DNA from: a virus
Length of the DNA stretch: 35,056 bases
Direction: 5' to 3' (one strand)
Virus record (IMG/VR): IMGVR_UViG_3300029448_004129
Coordinates: 1 to 35,056 of that record
Below, piece after piece: positions 500 to 21,103 of the stretch (its first letter is position 1; each line of letters opens with the position of its first letter). The position numbers were made by a program, and so were the translations under genes. The notes under the pieces were generated by a model. It was not told the DNA's origin and did no database searches. It saw nothing but the letters and a program-made list of their open reading frames with translations.

Positions 500-879
500 A
501 ATCTCTCAATGTATTTTTTCAGTTCTTTGTCTTCAACATCTGCTGGTATATCGTTCTTATAAAATATCCTATAACTATCACTACCATATTTACCAATACC
601 ATGTAAGTCTAAAGCGTCTCTACCATCCCATGTCAGAAAGTCTTTACTCATCTGTCTCAATCTCTTTGACCTGACTTTACTCATACCAAGGGGTCTCAAC
701 ATCTTCTCCTGTGTGTTATATCTACCCTGTATGAAAGCAGAGGCATTGGGATATTTCTTAAATAGTTCAGGTAATATTTTCTTAACTTCTCTACCATGTG
801 TGAGGTTCAAACATATCACACCAACCATGTGTTGCCACTTACTCTTTACTTGTTGTTGCACCATTAACTCTGGTCTCAT
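496..879 (-). CDS. MBD4-like HhH-GPD mismatch DNA glycosylase
   Basis: This 127-residue protein looks like a stand-alone version of the catalytic domain of vertebrate MBD4, which removes T or U opposite G. The helix-hairpin-helix segment LHGIGKYGSDSYRIF (residues 92-106) is nearly the same as MBD4's LHGIGKYGNDSYRIF. The catalytic Asp corresponds to D117 in EDKELKKY, matching EDHKLNKY in MBD4. Earlier blocks also match: VGVICLNLTHGR (19-30, MBD4 IFLNRTSGK) and LRPLGMSKVRSKRL (61-74). No Cys cluster for an iron-sulfur centre is visible, unlike endonuclease III. The ATG overlaps the polymerase stop codon, so it is co-expressed with gp43. Base-excision activity on phage or host DNA is inferred from the family; the exact substrate is unknown. 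Confidence 0.85.
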   Translation of the reverse strand: MRPELMVQQQVKSKWQHMVGVICLNLTHGREVKKILPELFKKYPNASAFIQGRYNTQEKMLRPLGMSKVRSKRLRQMSKDFLTWDGRDALDLHGIGKYGSDSYRIFYKNDIPADVEDKELKKYIERL

Positions 880-3344
880 GCAAAAAAGTCCTCGATGGTA
901 TTACTATCAGAAGCGTCAATGTTCCATTTGATTGCACCCAGTATGAAACGTAATGGTTCCATAAATGATTTTTGGAATTGCATTTCATAATCAATATATC
1001 CGTGCATATCAAACTCTTTAGGTAATTTAGATATAAACGTTATGACATTTGCATTCCATAAATTTTTTCTAAGGTGAACATACTTACCCTTATCACCCTC
1101 ATAGATAGGTTGAAACTTATGTGAAACTTTTTTAATCTTTAATAGATGATTGTACATCAGAGCACCCTTGACGTGCATTGGTGTACCCTTCTTATATATT
1201 GATGTTACATCACCATATTTTTTCACACCGTTAACACTTCTAGGAAAAGCAATCTGTTCTGGTTGCATAAGTTCAAACTCTCTACGAAAATTCATAATAA
1301 ACTCTTTCATTTCTTTTTGGTCACCACCCATGATAACTTTAAAACCCTCTTTGAGTTTATCCCTACAAGGTAAAGGGGTAGAAGTTTTTACTGCCTCGAT
1401 ACCCATAATCTTTAACTTTGGTTCTGAGTATTGAACACCTTCAGAATTATGTACGTTGAGAATATATCTTTTCTTTGCCGTCCAGATACCTTTATCAGCA
1501 ATAACTTCTCGTTTCATTACCATCTTGTTTTCAAAAACGTTCATATAATTACCAAGTTCGTCATAACACCTCTCAATGTATGGTTCAAACTTTTCTGAAC
1601 AGAATTGGTCTAACGCTTTTACTATTTTTGTTTTATCAGTTGCACCTGTCAACTTAACAAGTGGTGCCATGTTGACGTAGATGGAATCTGTGTCAGAAGC
1701 GATAACATAATTTTTGTTATCAGTTTTATACAATCTATTAAAGTATTCGTTAACTTTATTATCTATCCATCTTATGTTCAATTGACCAGACATGGTAATC
1801 GCTTCTGCCTGTCTGTGGTCATAGTATCTAAAATATTTGTTACCAATCGCACCATAGGCACTATTCAATGAAATCTTTTTAGAATGTTGTATCAAATAAT
1901 ATTTACGTGCCAGTTTCTCATACTTCTTGTCTTTAGTGTTGGCATATTGTTGTTCTGCCTCTAACATCTTTTTCTTATAGATAACACGGTCATCATATTC
2001 TCTTTTGATGATACTAGGTAACATGCCAACTTTGTCCGTCTTATACATTGTGCCATTTGCAGCCATACAGTTGTTACCCACATTGACTTTTTTATCTAAC
2101 AGGTCATCTATAAAAACATCTTTCTTTTCAGGTAAGATTGTCTCTGGTGAAATATTGTATTGCATAATTAAGTGTGGGTATAGTGAGTTCAAATCGAAAG
2201 ATACTACCCAATCATGGAAACCAACAGTGGGTTCTTTTACATATGCACCAACAAGTTCTTTAGATTGTGGATTCATTTCACGCATTGGCACAATCGTATT
2301 TGTTTTTAACAATTCGTTATATATGATTGTGTCCCACATACGAACCTGTGAGAATACATCTTCATAATTTACTTTGGCATTATATGCCATCGTTATTGCA
2401 AGTTCTATCAGTTGTAATCTATCCTCTAGTCTATCGACTAATTCAACATCTTGTATATTATAATCTATGAATGATTGTATGTCTTGTTGATACCACTCTT
2501 TGAAAGTATCGTATGGGTTATCATCTTTACTTTCACCAAGTTCGACAAAACCAATATGGTCAAGTTTATAACTCTCTTGGTTTTTGATTGTAAATTTTTG
2601 ATAGAGTTGTAGGTAATCTAATTGTGCGATACCGTGCAATCTATAATAGGTCTGTGTCTTGCCCATATAGTATGTGTTATCTTCCATAACTTGACCCCAA
2701 GGGGACATGCGTTTCATAACACTCTCGCCAAGTATCTTTTCTATACGTCTTGTTAGATAAGGTATATCAAAGTATTTACTATTCCAACCAGTAAGAATAT
2801 CTGGTGAATAATCTTTCCAGAATTTTAGAAATTGTATTAGTAAATCTTTTTCATCTTTACATTTTATATAATGTACGTTGTCTTGTTTCTTCTCATAGTC
2901 TGCCATACCCCAAACCAATATTTGTTTTTTGACTTGGTCTTTGATTGTAATACAAATCATCTTTTCTGCACAATCAGTTACATTAGGAAAACCGTGTTCA
3001 CTTTCTACCTCAATATCAATTGTGTATATTCGTAATAGGTCTTTATCATATTCCATTGTGCCAGGATAATAATCAGAAATATATTGATACTGAAATCTAT
3101 CCGTACCAAATACAAAGTCTTTGTGTTCTTCGTATCTCTTAATCGCCTGTCTGGCTTCTCGTATTGTGTTGTAAGTCTGTGGTAATAAACCTTTACCATC
3201 TAATGATTGATGGGTGCATTTACCTTTGTATGGAAAGTATAGTCTTGGTTTCCATTTCATACGGTCAGTAAATCTCTCACCGTTTTCGAAACCTCGAATA
3301 TATAGGGTATCGCCATGTGGCGTAACGTTAGTATAAAATCGCAT
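876..3344 (-). CDS. 43: Family B replicative DNA polymerase (T4 gp43)
   Basis: At 822 residues this is slightly shorter than T4 gp43 (898) and looks complete. The 3'-5' exonuclease motifs are DIEVES (D110, E112), GWNSKYFD (186-193) and YNIQD (295-299). The polymerase motifs are A, DLNSLYP (384-390); B, K490 to NSAYG (494-498); and C, DTDS (551-554). The C-terminal tail IEDFFA is suited to clamp binding, as in T4. It is the processive replicase working with gp45/44/62. It has its own promoter, with TATAAT only six bases before the ATG and no Shine-Dalgarno sequence, so transcripts from that promoter would be leaderless. Transcripts reading through from regA would carry a leader. No intein or frameshift is seen. 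Confidence 0.98.
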   Translation of the reverse strand: MRFYTNVTPHGDTLYIRGFENGERFTDRMKWKPRLYFPYKGKCTHQSLDGKGLLPQTYNTIREARQAIKRYEEHKDFVFGTDRFQYQYISDYYPGTMEYDKDLLRIYTIDIEVESEHGFPNVTDCAEKMICITIKDQVKKQILVWGMADYEKKQDNVHYIKCKDEKDLLIQFLKFWKDYSPDILTGWNSKYFDIPYLTRRIEKILGESVMKRMSPWGQVMEDNTYYMGKTQTYYRLHGIAQLDYLQLYQKFTIKNQESYKLDHIGFVELGESKDDNPYDTFKEWYQQDIQSFIDYNIQDVELVDRLEDRLQLIELAITMAYNAKVNYEDVFSQVRMWDTIIYNELLKTNTIVPMREMNPQSKELVGAYVKEPTVGFHDWVVSFDLNSLYPHLIMQYNISPETILPEKKDVFIDDLLDKKVNVGNNCMAANGTMYKTDKVGMLPSIIKREYDDRVIYKKKMLEAEQQYANTKDKKYEKLARKYYLIQHSKKISLNSAYGAIGNKYFRYYDHRQAEAITMSGQLNIRWIDNKVNEYFNRLYKTDNKNYVIASDTDSIYVNMAPLVKLTGATDKTKIVKALDQFCSEKFEPYIERCYDELGNYMNVFENKMVMKREVIADKGIWTAKKRYILNVHNSEGVQYSEPKLKIMGIEAVKTSTPLPCRDKLKEGFKVIMGGDQKEMKEFIMNFRREFELMQPEQIAFPRSVNGVKKYGDVTSIYKKGTPMHVKGALMYNHLLKIKKVSHKFQPIYEGDKGKYVHLRKNLWNANVITFISKLPKEFDMHGYIDYEMQFQKSFMEPLRFILGAIKWNIDASDSNTIEDFFA

Positions 3345-11213: not shown

Positions 11214-12755
11214 CTAGTGGACCGCTTTCCAGTCAAAATCCGTCACTAATTCCATGCCATATTCGTTATTTTCATCTGGCAATACCACATCTGGTTTCAA
11301 TTTTAACTTGTTGACCTTGAATGGTGTATAATCCACAAAGTGGTGCCATCTACCATATTTCCAAACTAGGGTCGCAACGTCTGGGTGCATGTCGACCAAC
11401 ATTTGAGATTTGTTGATTGTGCCATCTACGTTATAACCTGTCTCCTTAAATTCTTCGTTATCTGTATTCTCGGCATGATAAAATTCTGCTGTGTTACCAC
11501 CCTTTACAGTTTGAGTTGCAGCCTTACCTTGTAGAAAGGCATTGAACTGGACGCACACATCACCATCTTTCAAAACTCTCAAACAGATATCAGTATCTTC
11601 ATTGTATCTACCACGCCATCTATGTTTCGTATCGTTACGAATTAGTAAACAACTGTATATTCTAGTGTTAGATACAAAAGGTGGATAGTTACTGTCTGGT
11701 GCGATAAAGAAACGATATTGTGGACCTGCGATATAAACATTTGAGTATCTATCAACGAAATCTTCCATCACTTGAAATCCTACACCACTTTCAAATCGTA
11801 TTCTCTTGTTATTATGTAATCTGTAAAAGTCTGTAATGTTATCATCAAACACCCAATGACTTGTTGCACCAATAGATATGGAATGATCCCATGCCCAGTT
11901 TCTTGCACGACCGGGTCCATCACCGTGATTGGAGAATGGTGCCTCTAGTAGAGTTACATAAGGTCGAATATTAAAATTATCTAGTGCCTTATCATAGTCG
12001 TTCATGTCTTGTGGTTCTACTACGATATAGTGTGGTATCTCCATACGTGCCAGTGACCTACTCGTTATCATTGTGTCACTACGACCTTTACTTACGATAT
12101 AACAAGGGTGTCTTGGATTAGTTCTACCATTTGGTTGCACCCATCTTAATAGTAAATTTTTTGTTATCTCTAATTTTGGATGCCAGATAGATTTAGATTT
12201 CTCTGTGACCTCTTGTTGTATCTTCTCACCAAACTCTTTATAATCTTCCTGTGTTCTAAAGTGTAATAGAAACTTACGATATGGTGCGTTGTCTTCTTGT
12301 TTATATTCTGGCATGCCCTTCCAATGTTTTGGCCATGCGTTCTCTTGTATCTCACTATCTCTCGTTTTGTCTGCCTTTATCTTACCAAAAAATTTTTTTG
12401 CTTTCTTTGGTTCTATCTTACTTCTATCAATGACAACTTGTTCATCATCATCTGCCAAGAATGACGTGCCTGCACTTGATGATTTTAATGGGTAGTACGT
12501 TTCTGATACGTTACCTGGTATAGATTGATTTATCTTCTTACAAAAATCTTCTAGGTCATCTAGGTTTCTGAATGCCATGTATATCGTCTTATACACATCA
12601 TCTTTTGTCTTCGTTTCTTTTTGTTTGTGATCGACAACAGCGTCAGCGATTAATTCATCACCCTCAACATGTCTATCAAGTGTGGCGATATAGTCATCAT
12701 TTTTGACCTGTGTCTTTTCCATAAAATTATCATATCTTGCACTTTCTTTAACCAT
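11214..12755 (-). CDS. TET/JBP-associated-type glycosyltransferase (TAGT-like) with duplicated N-terminal motif
   Basis: I start at the ATG at 12755, preceded by GAGGAG; it overlaps the stop of the upstream glycosyltransferase by one base. The 513-residue product has a C-terminal GT-A-like domain (about 205-485): CYIVSKGRSDTMITSRSL (218-235), HYIVVEPQDMNDYDKAL (242-258), GDGPGRARNWAWD (278-290), metal-site DDN (304-306) and YNEDTDICLRVL (384-395). This is the pattern of TAGT enzymes, proposed to glycosylate oxidised bases in phage DNA. The N-terminal half carries two copies of a short motif, FRNLDDLEDFCKKINQ (62-77) and FRTQEDYKEFGEKIQQ (166-181), each ending in a Tyr/Trp-x-Pro turn. Sugar donor and acceptor are unknown; a virion or lipid target is an alternative. 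Confidence 0.8.
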   Translation of the reverse strand: MVKESARYDNFMEKTQVKNDDYIATLDRHVEGDELIADAVVDHKQKETKTKDDVYKTIYMAFRNLDDLEDFCKKINQSIPGNVSETYYPLKSSSAGTSFLADDDEQVVIDRSKIEPKKAKKFFGKIKADKTRDSEIQENAWPKHWKGMPEYKQEDNAPYRKFLLHFRTQEDYKEFGEKIQQEVTEKSKSIWHPKLEITKNLLLRWVQPNGRTNPRHPCYIVSKGRSDTMITSRSLARMEIPHYIVVEPQDMNDYDKALDNFNIRPYVTLLEAPFSNHGDGPGRARNWAWDHSISIGATSHWVFDDNITDFYRLHNNKRIRFESGVGFQVMEDFVDRYSNVYIAGPQYRFFIAPDSNYPPFVSNTRIYSCLLIRNDTKHRWRGRYNEDTDICLRVLKDGDVCVQFNAFLQGKAATQTVKGGNTAEFYHAENTDNEEFKETGYNVDGTINKSQMLVDMHPDVATLVWKYGRWHHFVDYTPFKVNKLKLKPDVVLPDENNEYGMELVTDFDWKAVH

Positions 12756-13603
12756 CAAATAAACTCCTCTAAACTATTTGTATTACCCTTCTTATATGCC
12801 TTCGACCAAGACACCTTGACTTTACCATAGTCTCTGAATCCACCCTTAACTCTAGTGCCGTCAGTATTATATAGGATTTTAAAAAACTCTGGGAATCGTT
12901 CTTGTATCTTTTTATGGTCGTTATGTGTTTGTTCGAATGTTTGATTATCCCATATAGTTGATGGCATAGACTTTTTATTAACACTCGTATTTGAAAAACA
13001 AAACTCACTCGAAACTCTGTTACCATATCCATTAGTTAATAGTGTTAGAAAAAAATGTGTATCTTCCATAACTCGTATAGATGTTAGGTCCCACTTTGGT
13101 AAGTCATCTTTAAAATCTTTACCATTAAACCAGACACCACTACCAAGACTAGAATTATTTACAAAGTATTTGTCTGATGGTGGATTCTCTACATGGCTAC
13201 AACCACAGAATGTCACATCTGGTTCATCTAACCACTTCTCGTATAGTTCAAACATTTCTAGTATATCATCTGGTGTCGCATTACGTCTGGATTTCTCCAT
13301 GTTATCTTTGCCACCAAAGTATTTACTATTACGTCTATGAAAATTTAAGTCATCATCTAATACAACGTACTTCTCATCTTTTGCCGTATCGTAAATATAT
13401 TTTCTTGTTCTTGGTAAACAATAATAATCTGAGTAATGATATTCTGGTGTGTTTGGTAATATACAATAGTTCAGGTCTAGGTTGTATTCAGCCAGTTCAT
13501 GTGCCTGTATGACCAATACAACGTTCTTCTTCAACTCATCTGGTAAATGGTTGTATGTTATCTGATTATTATATCTATGGACAGTTGGTATATAAATTTT
13601 CAT
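12755..13603 (-). CDS. GT-A type glycosyltransferase, related to the next gene
   Basis: The 282-residue product begins MKIYIPTVHRYNNQITYN, continues VVLVIQAHELAEY (28-40) and has a DxD-type YVVLDDDLNF (79-88, acidic 83-85). The later VMEDTHFFLTLLTNG (178-192) matches YNEDTDICLRVLKDG of the downstream TAGT-like protein, so both share the same fold and motif order. There is no signal peptide or membrane segment. It is the first gene of a two-gene unit with its own promoter; TATAAT lies eight bases before the ATG and no Shine-Dalgarno sequence is visible. Sequential sugar additions by the pair, or two different sugars, are possible. The acceptor is not shown by sequence. Confidence 0.78.
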   Translation of the reverse strand: MKIYIPTVHRYNNQITYNHLPDELKKNVVLVIQAHELAEYNLDLNYCILPNTPEYHYSDYYCLPRTRKYIYDTAKDEKYVVLDDDLNFHRRNSKYFGGKDNMEKSRRNATPDDILEMFELYEKWLDEPDVTFCGCSHVENPPSDKYFVNNSSLGSGVWFNGKDFKDDLPKWDLTSIRVMEDTHFFLTLLTNGYGNRVSSEFCFSNTSVNKKSMPSTIWDNQTFEQTHNDHKKIQERFPEFFKILYNTDGTRVKGGFRDYGKVKVSWSKAYKKGNTNSLEEFI

Positions 13604-13611
13604 ATTTCTAT

Positions 13612-13640
13612 ATTATATCACAAAATTAAAAAAAAGTCAA
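13612..13640 (-). promoter_or_regulatory. Sigma70-type promoter of the glycosyltransferase pair
   Basis: TTGACT at 13640-13635, a 17-bp spacer and TATAAT at 13617-13612 with TGA before it. It starts two bases beyond the gene 46 stop codon. Eight bases separate the -10 from the ATG at 13603. Confidence 0.87.
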
Positions 13641-13642
13641 GC

Positions 13643-15349
13643 CTACTCCACAATTTTAGTGAAATTCCCTGCTTTTTCAAATCTCATTACGTTGGCAAAC
13701 TTATCTGCTATCATATCTGTTTTGTGGGATATGATAAAGATATTCTCACCTTCTAATGTATTTAGGATTTTAAGAAAGTCGTCCGTGCCTGTGCCATCTA
13801 AACTACTATCAAATATCTCATCTAACAATAATAGGTTGGTCGATATACTATTCTTCATCTTTGCAATAGCACGCCAAGTAAATAACAATGCAAGATTTAT
13901 TCTCATCTTCTCACCCTCACTAAAAGAGGCATAAGAGAACTCATCACGGAATCTACTTCTTATCGTTTCCTTAAACTCATTATCTAATCTAAAGTTTACA
14001 AAGAAGTCCATACTCGCAAGGTACTTATTAATCAACTGGTTCATTATTGGTAGATATTGTTTGATTACTTTTGTCTTAATACCTGTATCGTTCAACATTG
14101 TTTTTGCTGCCTGTAAATAATCTAGTTCTTCTTTTTTTATCTGTTTCTTTTCATCTATTTGTGTTTGTTGATTTTCTAGTTCAGATAATTTGCCCTTCGC
14201 TTCGCCACTGTCACTAGATTGTTGTTTTAACTCATCTATCTTATGTGTCAATTTTGTGTTAATATTGTGTAACTCTATTTTTGATTGTTCAAACTTAGCA
14301 ACGTCAATCTCTACGGTTCTTATCTCTGCCTCTATCGTTTGTATTTTTTCTAATCGTGTACTCAACGACCTTATCTCTTTGTCAGCGTCTTCTAATGCTT
14401 GATTCCATTTCATTATGTCTTTGTTATTTTCAGCAATCATAATTTGTTTATTAGATAACGTTTGTTTACATGTTGGACAATCATCATGGTTCTCGTAGAA
14501 TGATTTGTGTTTGTTACACTCTTTCAACTTACTCTCAAACTGTGCCTCAAAGTTTCTTAGTTTATCAGATTTGTTCGATAGGTTGTCTTTGTCTATTATA
14601 TCTTTTCTCAACTTTGATATCTCTGCCTGTAACCCTTGTATGTGTGTATTATATTTGTCTATAGCATTCGTATTACTCGTAACTTTCTGTATCTCACTTT
14701 GTACTTCTATGTCGGATCTTAATTGTAGTTTTTCAATATATTCTTTTTGTGTGTCTATCTTATTTGATACTATATCCAACTCTCTCAATATATCTTTGAC
14801 CTGTTCTTCTTGTTCTTTTATTCTTATCTTTGCCAACATTTGCATAACGGAGAATATCTTAATATCAAGTATATCTTCAACAACCTCTCGTCTATGTGCT
14901 GTCTTCAATTCCATGAACGGCACGAAGGTACTACTACCCAGTATTACGACCTGGGTAAAACTACGGTAGTTGAATTTAAGTATTTGTTGTTCTAACATTT
15001 TCTGATGGTCTGCTATCGTTGCGTCTTGGTCCATCATTTCATCATTCAAGTATATCTCAAAGAGACCAGGTTTCATACCTCGTCTTATCTTATACTTGTT
15101 ATTTGCGATAGAAAATTCTAACTCAACCTCTGTGCCACCTAGATTGACACTATTAATCATTTGTTCTTTTTTTATCTCTCTAAATGGTTTATTAAAAAGA
15201 GCAAAACACAATGCGTCTAATATGGTCGATTTACCTGCACCATTGTGACCAACGATGAGCGTGGTACTGTTCTGGTTTAGGGGTACTTCTATAAATTGGT
15301 TACCAGATGAAAGAAAGTTCTTCCACCTGATCTTTTCAAATATTATCAT
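13643..15349 (-). CDS. 46: Recombination endonuclease subunit, SMC/Rad50-like (T4 gp46)
   Basis: The 568-residue protein (T4 gp46: 560) has Walker A GHNGAGKS (34-41), two long coiled-coil arms, a zinc hook CPTC in the centre, the ABC signature FSEGEKMRI and Walker B LLLLDEIFDSSLD near the C-terminus. With gp47 it forms the Rad50/Mre11-type complex that resects DNA ends for recombination-dependent replication and host DNA degradation. The ATG overlaps the stop of the 2OG-oxygenase gene (TAATG). It ends the gp55-gp47-oxygenase-gp46 unit. Confidence 0.97.
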   Translation of the reverse strand: MIIFEKIRWKNFLSSGNQFIEVPLNQNSTTLIVGHNGAGKSTILDALCFALFNKPFREIKKEQMINSVNLGGTEVELEFSIANNKYKIRRGMKPGLFEIYLNDEMMDQDATIADHQKMLEQQILKFNYRSFTQVVILGSSTFVPFMELKTAHRREVVEDILDIKIFSVMQMLAKIRIKEQEEQVKDILRELDIVSNKIDTQKEYIEKLQLRSDIEVQSEIQKVTSNTNAIDKYNTHIQGLQAEISKLRKDIIDKDNLSNKSDKLRNFEAQFESKLKECNKHKSFYENHDDCPTCKQTLSNKQIMIAENNKDIMKWNQALEDADKEIRSLSTRLEKIQTIEAEIRTVEIDVAKFEQSKIELHNINTKLTHKIDELKQQSSDSGEAKGKLSELENQQTQIDEKKQIKKEELDYLQAAKTMLNDTGIKTKVIKQYLPIMNQLINKYLASMDFFVNFRLDNEFKETIRSRFRDEFSYASFSEGEKMRINLALLFTWRAIAKMKNSISTNLLLLDEIFDSSLDGTGTDDFLKILNTLEGENIFIISHKTDMIADKFANVMRFEKAGNFTKIVE

Positions 15350-16056
15350 TAAAAATAGTTTTTTGGAAATTTATCTCTATTGGTGTATATCATGTTACCA
15401 GATACGCTTATCCGTTCACCTGGCGTCTTGTAGGGATATACCATGTGTGTCAACATAGCAGGAAATATCCATAGCACACCAACTACTGGCCAGACTTTAA
15501 CCTGCATGGTCTTCCATTTAAGATGTCTCGGCATCGTGTCCAGTTCATTCTCAAACATGAGACTACCCGGTGTTGGTGAGTTCGCCACATGATTGTTGAT
15601 CTCATCTTCCCATGGTGGTAATTTTAAAAACGTTACATAACTCAGATCACCTGAATGGTTGTGTGGTGGATTAAATTCACCCTCTCTCATAAAGTTGACC
15701 CACATATCGTGTAGGTGCATTTCAACCATGAATGTGTCGATTCCTTCTTCCATTTGAAGTTGCCTACTTAAACCATGATAGTCTTCATGTGCTTTTCTGT
15801 AGTGACCAAAGAATGATCCAACTTCTTCTAAGAACCACTTTCTATCTTGTATGGTATAATGGTGTTCAGATTTTAGATGTCCTGCTAAATCTTTGTTAGC
15901 GGGATTATTTAACAATCTTGCTCTATCAAGCAAACCGTTTGTAACATGGTCTGGCATTTTTATACCCATGATGAATGGGCCAAAGTTCGCACCTTCCCAG
16001 TTTACACCTTTTTCTAATTGTGATGTGGGTATAGTAATCTTTTCTTCTTCGTTCAT
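15349..16056 (-). CDS. 2OG-Fe(II) oxygenase-like protein
   Basis: The 235-residue protein has the layout of the phage 2OG-Fe(II) dioxygenases common in marine T4-like phages. FNPPHNHSGDLSYVTFL (128-144) supplies candidate iron ligands (H132 or H134, and D137). THMVYPYKTPGERISVSGN (203-221) supplies the distal His (H204) and the 2-oxoglutarate-binding Arg (R215). Such enzymes hydroxylate proteins, small molecules or bases. This one is not an obvious TET/JBP or AlkB member by motif. Its start overlaps gp47 and its stop overlaps gp46, so it is inserted into the T4 47-46 pair and is probably late-early co-expressed with them. Substrate unknown. Confidence 0.88.
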   Translation of the reverse strand: MNEEEKITIPTSQLEKGVNWEGANFGPFIMGIKMPDHVTNGLLDRARLLNNPANKDLAGHLKSEHHYTIQDRKWFLEEVGSFFGHYRKAHEDYHGLSRQLQMEEGIDTFMVEMHLHDMWVNFMREGEFNPPHNHSGDLSYVTFLKLPPWEDEINNHVANSPTPGSLMFENELDTMPRHLKWKTMQVKVWPVVGVLWIFPAMLTHMVYPYKTPGERISVSGNMIYTNRDKFPKNYF

Positions 16057-17111
16057 ACTTCTATGTCTCCTGCTTCTGTATATAAAGACTTTAATAATGT
16101 TTTCAACTTATCTTTATTCAAATCAGTTTCAAGTTGTTCGATATAGTTATCCAACAACGTTGGTGTGTCCTCACTTCTCTCAGCGATATCATCTGCCACG
16201 GTAGAAGCGTCTAGGTCAGAATAGTCTTCTATAACTTTTATATCATTTATATCTGTTTTATAGAAACCATCTAAAAACTTGTCGAATAAGAAATAATCTT
16301 TTTTCTTTTCAACTATCAGTTTTATATATTTGTCTTTGTATTTGTCAAAGTCAAAATCTTTGTAATCGTTTTCTTCATCATTGTAATATATCTTTTCGTG
16401 TATCGTGTATGGATTCTTTATGTGTTTTATCTCTCTTGTTTCTGTATCTAATATATGAAACCCTTTTGGACAATTATGATCTGCCCAGTTAAATTCATAT
16501 GGACTACCAAGATAGAATATGTGACCATCATCAGATTTTTTATGAAAGTGACCAGATAATATGGTCTCAAATCTTCTAAACAATTTTTTCTCTAATCCAT
16601 TTGTAGAGATATGTCCGTTGTGCATTTCGAAACCTTTAATCTCTAGGTGACCCAATACAATGTCGGCACTCTCTTGTTCTAACATCATAGTTGTTTGTTC
16701 TATGTTTTGTGAGTTAACCCATGGTAAAAATAACATCTTCATACCACCTATTGTTTGAACAGTTGGTTCTCTATGAACATTAAACATAATAGGGTCTAAT
16801 AATTCATCTGGTGCATTTATATCATTTGTATTCTTATAATAAGTATCATGGTTGCCCACAATAATATCTACATTACGTCTACCATCTATCAATCGTTTTA
16901 CAAAATTATTGTTAAAGTCTGATAATGTTTTAAAATTAACAAACTTACGTCTGTCTAATACATCACCAAGGTGTATAACGTCTTGTATATGATTTGCTTC
17001 GATATACGGAAAGAATATCTCATCATAAAACTTATAAAAGTATTTGTTGTAATGAGGGTTATCGTTTCTTGCACCAAAGTGGGTATCTGCTAGTAATGCT
17101 ATTTCTGTCAT
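16053..17111 (-). CDS. 47: Recombination endonuclease subunit, Mre11-like (T4 gp47)
   Basis: The 352-residue product (T4 gp47: 339) carries the calcineurin-type phosphoesterase motifs: LADTHFGARND near the N-terminus, IHLGDVLDRR, IVGNHDTYYKN, GHLEIKGF and LSGHFHKK followed by LGSPYEFNW. These bind the two Mn ions of the Mre11 nuclease. It works with gp46 on DNA ends. It overlaps gp55 at its start and the oxygenase at its end by ATGA. The oxygenase between 47 and 46 is a departure from T4, where small genes also lie between them. Confidence 0.97.
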   Translation of the reverse strand: MTEIALLADTHFGARNDNPHYNKYFYKFYDEIFFPYIEANHIQDVIHLGDVLDRRKFVNFKTLSDFNNNFVKRLIDGRRNVDIIVGNHDTYYKNTNDINAPDELLDPIMFNVHREPTVQTIGGMKMLFLPWVNSQNIEQTTMMLEQESADIVLGHLEIKGFEMHNGHISTNGLEKKLFRRFETILSGHFHKKSDDGHIFYLGSPYEFNWADHNCPKGFHILDTETREIKHIKNPYTIHEKIYYNDEENDYKDFDFDKYKDKYIKLIVEKKKDYFLFDKFLDGFYKTDINDIKVIEDYSDLDASTVADDIAERSEDTPTLLDNYIEQLETDLNKDKLKTLLKSLYTEAGDIEV

Positions 17112-17668
17112 GCCATAAAAAATTCTAACTTACGAGGTTCTTTCTTTTTTCGTTTGACTGGTTTATCTTTGTCATCTTTTTTTGGTTCTTCCTCGTATAT
17201 CATGTTCTTCTTTAGAAAGTCAGCGTAGGCATTTTGATATTCTGTGTTATCGCCTTCTTGTCTCACTATCTCATCTAGTCCACCCTTCATTATTAGTTTC
17301 TGTTTTATCGTAGTCTGTTTCTTCTCTTTCTGTATTCTACGAATAAAAGCATAATAGATTATTTGGGTGAAGTAGGCAAAGGGATTGTTTGATTTCTCTG
17401 GGTCAAAGTTAGCAACGTATTGCAAACAGTTTTCTATACCGTCAGATATCATATCCTCTTTATATGTGTAATTGATAAAGTTTGGTCTATACGATAAGTG
17501 GTTAGCAATCTTCAAAAAACATTCACCAATATAATCAGATATTTTTGGATCTCTGTGGCCTCTTTTTCTTGCACTCACTACCTTCTTATGGTATTTTTTC
17601 ATTTCTTCAAGGAATAATTTGTTATCAACATAATGTTCCTTTTTCTTTTTCGTTATTGGTACATTCAT
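17108..17668 (-). CDS. 55: Late-transcription sigma factor (T4 gp55)
   Basis: The 186-residue product is the size of T4 gp55 (185) and has its sigma region-2-like block: YIGECFLKIANHLSYRPNF (about 46-64), EDMISDGIENCLQYVANFDPEKSNNPFAYFTQIIYYAFIRRI (about 71-112), then a Lys-rich tail ending RKLEFFMA. In T4 gp55 directs host RNA polymerase to TATAAATA, and its C-terminus binds the gp45 clamp; the tail LEFF here fits clamp binding. Such boxes occur before late genes in this window. The promoter puts +1 on or one base before the ATG, with no Shine-Dalgarno sequence. No gp33 gene is recognised here. Confidence 0.95.
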   Translation of the reverse strand: MNVPITKKKKEHYVDNKLFLEEMKKYHKKVVSARKRGHRDPKISDYIGECFLKIANHLSYRPNFINYTYKEDMISDGIENCLQYVANFDPEKSNNPFAYFTQIIYYAFIRRIQKEKKQTTIKQKLIMKGGLDEIVRQEGDNTEYQNAYADFLKKNMIYEEEPKKDDKDKPVKRKKKEPRKLEFFMA

Positions 17669-18291: not shown

Positions 18292-19753
18292 TATCCACAT
18301 TATGGAGTTCGTAGTCGAACTCTTGTTCAGTATAGAACCCTACTCTTTCCATAAAATGGTTAAGGGTAAAATTTTTTCTTTCTTTGTAAGAGAAGTCATC
18401 AGCAATATCATAAAGAGTTGCTTTGCTCTTACTATCACCAAGACGGAGCCCACGACCCAAAGACTGTAGAACTCTAATTTTAGATTTGGTAGGACTGGCG
18501 AATATAACATTGTGAAGATTCCTAATATTGATCCCAGTGCTAAAAGTTCCGTAACTCGCCACAATAATTGCGTTGTTTTCATTTTCTGTAATGCTCCTTA
18601 TAGTTTCTCTATCTTTTGTTTCTGTGCCACCAAATACAAAAAACAATTTTCTTGTTTGAGGGTCTAAAGTATCACCAATCATATCATACAGTATTTTACC
18701 ATGTTTGTCAACATATTGAAATAAAACTAATGTATTCCCTGTTTGATCTCTGGTTAAGTTTTTTATAAAGTTGTTTCTTCTTTCATGTGAAACAATAAAG
18801 TCCATCTCTTCCTGATACTTTAAATTTTTAACTTGAATACAATCCTCTTTAGGGTATTTTAACACCACACATTGTATCTTTAAATCTGCTAGTTGTTTTT
18901 TATCAATCAACTCTCTAGTCGTTGTAACATGGGTGACTGGTCCAAATAAACCTTCTAGTACCAATTTGTGTACCTTACTGTCATCTAACGTCCCGGTTGT
19001 GCCTATACGAAAGTTTGCGTTGACAAGGTTACCCATAATCTTTTGTAACTCTTTTGATTTATATAAATGTGCCTCATCACCTATAACACAATCAAACTGT
19101 TCAAACCATTTCTTCTCAAAGGTCGCCAGTGATTGCCATGTTGATACTACCACAGGTTTCTTATCATCAATCTCGTACCCATAATATTTTCTTTGTACAT
19201 AATCCTCTGCCTTCCAACTGTAGTCTTCGAAGTCTTTATACATTTGTTCTACCAGTGATGTGGTTGGCACTACCAATAAACTTCTCTTACCAAGTGTTGT
19301 CATCATTCTTATAATACAGTAGATGATTAGAGACTTACCAGAAGCGGTTGGACTCAATAAAATACAACGTCTATGGTTGATTGCATGTGCGAAAGCGTCA
19401 AGTTGGTAATCTCTTATTTTTAGGGATTTCGTTAAAATTTTGTCAACAAACTTGGAAAAATCGTCTCTAGGAACGCTACCAGTCCTGTTTAAGCCATCGG
19501 GTAGTATGATTGTATGTCTGTTTTTTTCGCAAAAATGCTGTACATACGGCACTAACCCTCTATACAGTTTTCCAGTCGCTTTACTGTATAACCGTATCTT
19601 ACCATCCCATCTTTTGGCACGTACTGATGGCATGAAACTTGCACCGGGTACTTGAAACGTAAAAAAATCAGAAAGGTCTTGTTGTAATCCAAGATCCTCT
19701 GTTTTACATTTGACGTATGCTTGATTAAAGATTTCTATTGTTAATTCGCTCAT
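18287..19753 (-). CDS. uvsW: DNA/RNA helicase UvsW
   Basis: The 488-residue product (T4 UvsW: 503) is a superfamily 2 helicase. Walker A is SPTASGKS (134-141), motif Ia VVPTTSLVEQM, motif II DEAH (226-229), motif III TTGTLD, motif V VASYGTFSTGINI and motif VI QSLGRGLRLG. The N-terminal 80 residues include the DNA-binding region seen in T4 UvsW. It unwinds R-loops and branched DNA and helps switch from origin to recombination-dependent replication. It overlaps the upstream IGNGES gene by 29 bases. In T4 it is a late gene near uvsY, which agrees with its place here. Confidence 0.97.
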   Translation of the reverse strand: MSELTIEIFNQAYVKCKTEDLGLQQDLSDFFTFQVPGASFMPSVRAKRWDGKIRLYSKATGKLYRGLVPYVQHFCEKNRHTIILPDGLNRTGSVPRDDFSKFVDKILTKSLKIRDYQLDAFAHAINHRRCILLSPTASGKSLIIYCIIRMMTTLGKRSLLVVPTTSLVEQMYKDFEDYSWKAEDYVQRKYYGYEIDDKKPVVVSTWQSLATFEKKWFEQFDCVIGDEAHLYKSKELQKIMGNLVNANFRIGTTGTLDDSKVHKLVLEGLFGPVTHVTTTRELIDKKQLADLKIQCVVLKYPKEDCIQVKNLKYQEEMDFIVSHERRNNFIKNLTRDQTGNTLVLFQYVDKHGKILYDMIGDTLDPQTRKLFFVFGGTETKDRETIRSITENENNAIIVASYGTFSTGINIRNLHNVIFASPTKSKIRVLQSLGRGLRLGDSKSKATLYDIADDFSYKERKNFTLNHFMERVGFYTEQEFDYELHNVDI

Positions 19754-20546
19754 TTAATTCATCATAAGATATATTGGTCCAGTTATCTCTCTCATCTAAA
19801 TCATCTATGGGTTGCCCAACGTGTATGAACTCGTGGTCTTCGTACCTGTTCAATAATTTCTTTGTGTGGAATATCCAGTTTTGTGGGTCAACTGCTGCTG
19901 CCTTTTCTCCAACATACCCCTTTGTACCTTTATACACATTATTAACAGTTGATAACTTTGAATAATAATCATAACCTATCAGATATATTTTTTTCTCTAC
20001 GTCTGCTGCCATCATGGCAATCAATATACCTGCATTTGTTTTTTCATTCTTGTATTTACCCAGACCCATGACTTTATCTTTCTTCTTCGTCCAGGTTATG
20101 AGATAACCTTCTTGGTCTTCACTCAGGTAGAGTTTGAAGTCATCTTCATTTTTATCTTTATTTTCTTCCCTCATCTTCTTCATCAGGTCTTTATTATTTG
20201 CCCAACAAACAAAATATCTTTTCTTCTCACCCTTCCATACCCACTCGTCTGTGTATTCAGATATGTCTTCGATATCTTGTCCAAGAAACTTTGTGATTGT
20301 TTCTGGTTCAAATAGTTTGGGGTATAGTGTGTGTGGGTTCTTCTCCCATGACCTGAGATATACAGGATTGTCGAAAGCGTACCCACTACGATATATCTCA
20401 TGGCATATATTATAATCCATTGCCAATAATACGTCAGGTGTAAAGTCTCTAAAAAGACCATTACAACCATATATCTTGCCGTGTTCTTTTAGTTTATGTA
20501 AGTCAAGGTCTTTTCTACTCTCGCCATTACCTATACAAAATATCAT
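19725..20546 (-). CDS. GT42 sialyltransferase/DUF115-like protein, paralogue 1
   Basis: The 273-residue product opens MIFCIGNGESRKDLDLHKLK, then YGCNGLFRDFTPDVLLAMD (about 31-49). The GNGxS motif, the following 'l..l' and the GCN step resemble the CMP-binding start of GT42 sialyltransferases (AGNGPSLKEIDYSRL ... FRCN) and DUF115 proteins. The middle region has a charged insert (KMREENKDKNEDDFKLY, about 124-140). The C-terminal part has KIYLIGYDYYS and HEFIHVGQP. The next gene upstream is a shorter paralogue with the same motifs. A nucleotide-sugar transferase or Rossmann-type binder is inferred; no substrate can be named. It overlaps its neighbours on both sides. Confidence 0.82.
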   Translation of the reverse strand: MIFCIGNGESRKDLDLHKLKEHGKIYGCNGLFRDFTPDVLLAMDYNICHEIYRSGYAFDNPVYLRSWEKNPHTLYPKLFEPETITKFLGQDIEDISEYTDEWVWKGEKKRYFVCWANNKDLMKKMREENKDKNEDDFKLYLSEDQEGYLITWTKKKDKVMGLGKYKNEKTNAGILIAMMAADVEKKIYLIGYDYYSKLSTVNNVYKGTKGYVGEKAAAVDPQNWIFHTKKLLNRYEDHEFIHVGQPIDDLDERDNWTNISYDELNERINNRNL

Positions 20547-21103
20547 GCTAATCTCACATTCTCATAGTTGTTTAATATATTGTCCCAATTACCATATTGT
20601 ACAAATTTCATCTTTGGATATAATTCAAAAGTTTCTAAAAACTCTCTACTAGGAAATATCTTAGGATTAACTTTGAGTGGATAATTGTTACTACTCTTAT
20701 ATATGTTATTATGTTTACCAGTTTTATCATAGTCAAATCCAATCATGTGTACCTCTACACCACTCTCATACTTACCATCACCCAAATACTTAACACTATT
20801 TTTTGCAGCGGTTCGCAATGCCATAGTGCCACAATCTGGATAATCTACACCCCAATAAGTGATACGATTATATGCTAATCTACTTTCACTATCGTTTCGC
20901 CAACGATGTTGAAAAACCACTCTACGGTCTTTCCAACAATTTGCAAAAGTCACCTCGTTAGATATGCCCTTATCTTTACAGAAAAGATAATCTGTCCAGT
21001 AATCTCTATAGATGGCATTGCAACCATACTTAACACCTTTCAGTTTATCAATGTCTATATTTTTTCTACTCTCACCGTTACCAATAACCCAATGTATCAA
21101 CAC
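20543..21103 (-). CDS. GT42 sialyltransferase/DUF115-like protein, paralogue 2
   Basis: The 186-residue protein starts at a GTG at 21103 that overlaps the uvsY stop; a TTG one codon later is possible. It has VIGNGESRKNIDIDKLKG (about 6-23), YGCNAIYRDYWTDYLFCKD and VHMIGFDYD, matching paralogue 1 (CIGNGESRKDLDLHKLKE, YGCNGLFRDF, YLIGYDYY). It lacks the charged insert, which accounts for most of the size difference. Tandem duplication followed by divergence is the simplest reading. Nothing in the sequence shows the sugar or acceptor. Its stop overlaps paralogue 1 by ATGA. Confidence 0.82.
   Translation of the reverse strand: MLIHWVIGNGESRKNIDIDKLKGVKYGCNAIYRDYWTDYLFCKDKGISNEVTFANCWKDRRVVFQHRWRNDSESRLAYNRITYWGVDYPDCGTMALRTAAKNSVKYLGDGKYESGVEVHMIGFDYDKTGKHNNIYKSSNNYPLKVNPKIFPSREFLETFELYPKMKFVQYGNWDNILNNYENVRLA

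Follow-up and report, generated by a model that had tools for sequence, protein, structure and literature searches.

The window analyzed here, 35,056 nucleotides in length, comes from a virus record of 82.6 kb, and the phage is T4-like and close to Pelagibacter phage HTVC008M, with 94.5% identity in the major capsid protein and 75% in gp45. The HTVC008M genome is 147 kb, so the record is shorter by roughly 60 kb and ∼40% of the genome is probably absent. Five genuine, tightly packed genes lie together on the minus strand, as do all features described within them: the TAGT1 glycosyltransferase (11214 to 12758; 513 or 514 aa; PF20691, E 3.4e-41; phrog_842), the GT-A glycosyltransferase TAGT2 (12755 to 13603; 282 aa; PF20691, E 9.6e-8; phrog_842), the SbcC-like gp46 (13643 to 15349), a 2OG-Fe(II) oxygenase (15349 to 16056; PF13759 2OG-FeII_Oxy_5, E 8.2e-14; phrog_81), and gp47 (16053 to 17111, from the gene call). 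Pfam and PHROG matches and synteny identify gp46 as one flank of a variable slot that holds the transferases. The two transferase genes are coupled: the stop codon of TAGT2 overlaps the ATG of TAGT1 by one base (TGATG), and the ATG at 12755 is for this reason a likelier start of TAGT1 than the TTG at 12758. An earlier note on this DNA had placed a TAGT-like enzyme and a related GT-A enzyme beside gp46, with the oxygenase beyond it, and Pfam matches and gene calls bear out that arrangement.

Both transferases exceed the curated PF20691 cutoff of 27.5 bits (141.9 bits for TAGT1 and 32.6 bits for TAGT2), although their profiles give no significant score when compared directly with one another. 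The catalytic domain of TAGT1 (11496 to 12107) was delimited by the PF20691 match, invariant columns, and matches to GT-A enzymes in the PDB. Among 43 TAGT1 homologs, D305-D306-N307 (11838 to 11846) and N386-E387-D388 are invariant, as are D83-D84-D85 and D181 among 16 TAGT2 homologs, in which E180 is nearly so; the acidic motifs reported previously (DDN/NED versus DDD/MED) are thus genuine and conserved. The AlphaFold model of TAGT2 (pLDDT 87) matches GT-A enzymes in Foldseek searches of the PDB, including GnT-I and SpsA, and that of TAGT1, which is confident in parts only, chiefly the core, also matches GT-A enzymes. Protein glycosyltransferases are among these structural neighbors. Taken with the Pfam matches, the models place both proteins in the TAGT family with a predicted GT-A fold and conserved acidic motifs for metal binding and catalysis.

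Upstream of the catalytic domain, TAGT1 carries two copies of a tandem module of ∼50 aa, at residues 56 to 106 (12441 to 12593) and 155 to 206 (12141 to 12296), whose HMMs find each other. The module has no Pfam and no useful PHROG identity, and HMM searches detected it solely inside or adjoining TAGT genes. Standalone copies adjoin TAGT in phages Aeh1 (66 aa, ending ASLFDI; L004:7128-7328) and POP12 (59 aa, ending LDDFM; L007:7068-7247), and both match phrog_22103. The end of the Aeh1 copy is close to that of the gp43 protein of the same phage (ASLSDLFGDM). Standalone modules with such ends fit a tether that may be either fused to the enzyme or encoded separately.

An IMG/VR scan recovered 493 TAGT1 relatives, and 80 of them were retained. 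Another transferase is encoded no more than three genes away from 58/79 long TAGT1 genes, which is TAGT2, a GT4-type GT-B enzyme (c11, PF00534), or c62, a protein with no Pfam match that was termed a transferase from its appearance only. In relatives, TAGT2 fills the slot adjoining TAGT1, or else a GT-B enzyme that is unrelated to it but bears a similar tail (see below). Kinship of the GT-B partner with the T4 alpha-glucosyltransferase was considered and rejected, as its profile finds ordinary GT4 enzymes and not the T4 enzyme. The usual neighbors of TAGT1 are replication and recombination genes. Some relatives also have phosphomannomutase (PMM)-like (c51) and heptose adenylyltransferase-like (c17) genes near TAGT1, which suggests that the phage supplies the nucleotide sugar. 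A 454-aa protein that matches phrog_1583, has no Pfam match, and resembles DUF262 by eye is conserved near TAGT1 at 11 loci (L024:6066-7427 and ten others).

In T4, the hydrophobic-acidic C termini of gp43, gp55, and gp33 are interchangeable and bind the sliding clamp gp45 (PMC2988020). The corresponding tails in the window, TIEDFFA of the gp43 DNA polymerase (879 to 899, minus strand) and KLEFFMA of the gp55 late sigma factor (17111 to 17131, minus strand), served as references, and a strict pattern, [LIV][DE].[FLY][FLMIV] near the C terminus, was derived from tails of this type. Only three proteins in the 82.6-kb record match it: gp43, gp55, and TAGT2. The TAGT2 peptide, NSLEEFI (12758 to 12778), is predicted to bind gp45 on the basis of the strict pattern, its recurrence in relatives, and a shuffle test, and it lies in a low-confidence part of the structural model, as a flexible end would. 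TAGT1 has instead a predicted disordered N-terminal tail (residues 1 to 51; 12606 to 12758; pLDDT < 50), in which TLDRHV (12666 to 12683) is in register with the clamp-type SLDKFF/SLDRFF motifs of relatives. By sequence, the TAGT2 terminus is a hydrophobic-acidic peptide like those of the clamp clients gp43 and gp55, and TAGT1 of this clade has only a degenerate counterpart.

The background frequency of such tails was estimated from neighboring genes, of which 6/574 (1.0%) matched the strict pattern and 21/574 (3.7%) a relaxed one. The strict pattern was matched by 7/13 and the relaxed pattern by 11/13 TAGT2 relatives, the relaxed pattern by all nine members of the GT-B partner family, and the N-terminal motif was present in 33/46 distinct TAGT1 sequences versus 26/685 other genes. 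In shuffle tests on tails from divergent lineages, P was < 5e-5 for TAGT2, for the GT-B partner, and for the TAGT1 N terminus. Because the relaxed pattern was widened after the transferase tails had been seen and the lineages are related, these figures are strong but are not independent tests. Clamp-type tails were found in none of nine members of a transferase-like cluster from the same region (c31), and the 2OG protein has no clamp-type C terminus. The tails recur on three unrelated parts, namely, a GT-A C terminus, a GT-B C terminus, and the TAGT1 N terminus. No report of clamp binding by TAGT tails was found in the open-access literature searched. The equivalent slot of HTVC008M encodes a 335-aa protein (AGE60438; L003:10968-11975) that is GT-B-like by eye, has no Pfam match, and ends in RLDNLINL, a strict clamp-type match. 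It adjoins a JmjC_2-like protein (AGE60439), to which a 186-aa protein encoded at G000 63047-63604 (L010) is 49% identical.

These tails bear on what the transferases act upon. Cyanophage transferase clusters with sugar-supply genes are thought to modify host polysaccharide (PMC7824862), and the c17 and c51 genes near TAGT1, together with the protein glycosyltransferases among the structural neighbors, would suit enzymes that decorate host polysaccharide or lipid, or virion protein, for superinfection exclusion or tail glycosylation. We regard such a role as unlikely, since clamp-type tails have no evident use off DNA, the usual neighbors of TAGT1 serve replication and recombination, and, when seven proteins were searched with the TAGT2 profile, the DNA transferase of T6 was a match, if a weak one (E 1.2e-4).

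The base to which sugars would be attached was sought through the enzymes that might hydroxylate it. As the earlier note had proposed, the 82.6-kb record, itself a fragment, was searched for hydroxymethylases, and no PF00303 hydroxymethylase, the gp42-like dCMP hydroxymethylase included, was found in it. The TET/JBP family PF12851 had no match in 31 records (the 82.6-kb record and 30 others), a search in which no positive control matched either. Two marine relatives encode a canonical ThyA with Asn177, PTm1 has a gp42-like hydroxymethylase with Asp177, and Kuja has a divergent thymidylate synthase-like gene, residue 177 being assigned against an E. coli ThyA reference sequence. In Aeh1, td is alone among thymidylate synthase-type genes, and gene 42 is reportedly absent from this phage (PMC2993671). 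The cases of PTm1 and Aeh1 indicate that TAGT1-type enzymes occur with and without a recognizable hydroxymethylase. A TAGT2-like gene is also present in phage DLP6; the text consulted from the DLP6 publication contains no statement on DNA modification.

We think there is a good chance that TAGT1 and TAGT2 are DNA glycosyltransferases that dock on gp45 through terminal peptides and act on a modified base at the replication fork or in its immediate wake. The docking peptides would be SLEEFI at the C terminus of TAGT2 and, in the TAGT1 family, an N-terminal peptide of the SLDKFF type, which is degenerate in this clade. The linkage of two transferases suggests a sequential reaction, in which one would add a sugar to a hydroxylated base and the other would extend it, as the T6 TAGT does on alpha-glucosylated hmC. 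DNA is likely glycosylated at the replisome, the phage probably sugar-coats its own DNA, and the product may protect that DNA from nucleases. PF20691 membership of both enzymes, with the T6 precedent, speaks for this reading. Weighing against it are the lack of a hydroxymethylase or TET/JBP match in the 82.6-kb fragment, the degenerate TLDRHV tail of TAGT1, the ∼1% of C termini that match the strict pattern by chance, and two known enzymes: neither the T4 alpha-glucosyltransferase, despite its binding to gp45, nor the T6 TAGT has a recognizable clamp-type C terminus. The same tails, and the lack of an acceptor-base enzyme in the record, would also be expected if the clamp-tethered transferases acted on another replisome component, such as the single-strand-binding protein or an RNA primer, rather than on a base. 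We know of no precedent for such a target, and PF20691 has a DNA precedent in T6 (PMC13216743), which leaves this alternative a very slim chance.

The nearby oxygenase had been proposed as the functional partner of the transferases, so that a PF13759 enzyme would hydroxylate a DNA base and the two transferases would glycosylate the product. The genes are close together on the same strand, no alternative acceptor-forming enzyme was found in the record, and the TAGT family takes its name from an association with TET dioxygenases. The distribution of the oxygenase argues otherwise. In HTVC008M and Mosig EXVC030M, the order gp47-2OG-gp46 is kept with no TAGT at the site, and other genes lie between gp46 and the peptidase gene. 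Conversely, the gp47-gp46 junction could be read at 40 TAGT1 loci, of which 7 contain the oxygenase and 33 lack it. PF13759 was found in 7/28 records, all pelagiphage-like genomes, with or without TAGT, and it is absent from the TAGT-carrying isolates Aeh1, PTm1, Kuja, and POP12 and from the partial genome of a fifth, 1.076.O, whereas it has 3 matches in the 82.6-kb record and as many as 14 in HTVC008M (KC465899.1). By Pfam, the oxygenase belongs to PF13759 and not PF12851, in agreement with its earlier placement outside the TET/JBP subfamily, and its C terminus is not of the clamp type.

Since the oxygenase and TAGT vary independently, an obligate partnership is refuted, and an oxygenase-transferase unit was rejected on synteny and on presence and absence across records. 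We judge the PF13759 oxygenase to be a neighbor outside the system, which may have a role with the transferases in the window's clade alone; a base-hydroxylating set of all three enzymes seems to us highly improbable. The broader proposal that the transferases hypermodify DNA thus loses its oxygenase and keeps its target: DNA as the substrate is supported by the sliding-clamp-type tails of TAGT2 and of the equivalent enzymes in relatives, a line of evidence absent from the earlier note.

Several known systems resemble the one proposed here. The T2/T6 beta-glucosyl-HMC-alpha-glucosyltransferase (TAGT; YP_010067197.1) shares PF20691 and the GT-A fold and adds a second glucose to glucosyl-hmC (PMC13216743). 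Its gene adjoins gp42, the dCMP hydroxymethylase gene, and its substrate is alpha-glucosyl-hmC, whereas the phage studied here has two PF20691 enzymes with added tails and repeats and no gp42 in the 82.6-kb fragment. The T4 alpha-glucosyltransferase (PF11440) binds gp45 in vitro, according to the passage of PMC13216743 that cites Sommer 2004, and so offers a clamp-bound DNA transferase for comparison with the gp45 binding predicted here, but it has a GT-B fold and belongs to another family. The TAGT proteins of the Aeromonas phages Aeh1, phiAS5, and Ah1 are ∼47% identical to TAGT1 over 72% of its length and differ in that, in Aeh1, one repeat module is the separate 66-aa gene. The TET/JBP-associated systems in which TAGT was first described have a PF20691 enzyme in common with the window, but the linked oxygenase here is of a different family.

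Among 753 transferase-carrying phage genomes, 288 have a TAGT homolog without an alpha- or beta-glucosyltransferase and with no known function (PMC13216743). For at least one large group of these, the clamp-type tails point, from sequence, to action on replicating DNA. If so, many SAR11-type marine phages and members of related lineages have DNA coated with sugars, a trait that would bear on restriction, on DNA-glycosylase defenses, and on sequencing bias in ocean viromes. As a general marker, a clamp-type tail could also help to pick out DNA-acting enzymes among unknown phage genes. More speculatively, widespread marine T4-like phages might possess a replisome-docked set of unrelated GT-A and GT-B enzymes, each independently clamp-tailed, by which an oligosaccharide is assembled on a base hydroxylated by no known hydroxymethylase or TET/JBP enzyme, a possibility that we consider somewhat doubtful.

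Other open reading frames (ORFs) in the window were also compared. The MBD4-like glycosylase of the earlier note, there a possible counteracting enzyme, is a 127-aa ORF (496 to 879) that adjoins gp43, ∼10 kb from the transferases; no evidence in favor of a counteracting role emerged. It has a subthreshold match to PF00730 HhH-GPD (24.7 bits versus a cutoff of 26.2) and an 89.5% identical copy in G002, whereas comparison with stretches of HTVC008M and Mosig gave no match. The ORF beside it (2 to 499; compare L102:3036-4160) shares 71% identity with AGE60456 of HTVC008M, itself a match to PF14236 DruA (E 1.8e-10). Two adjoining ORFs, at 19725 to 20546 and 20543 to 21103, are likely paralogs, since both match phrog_30607.
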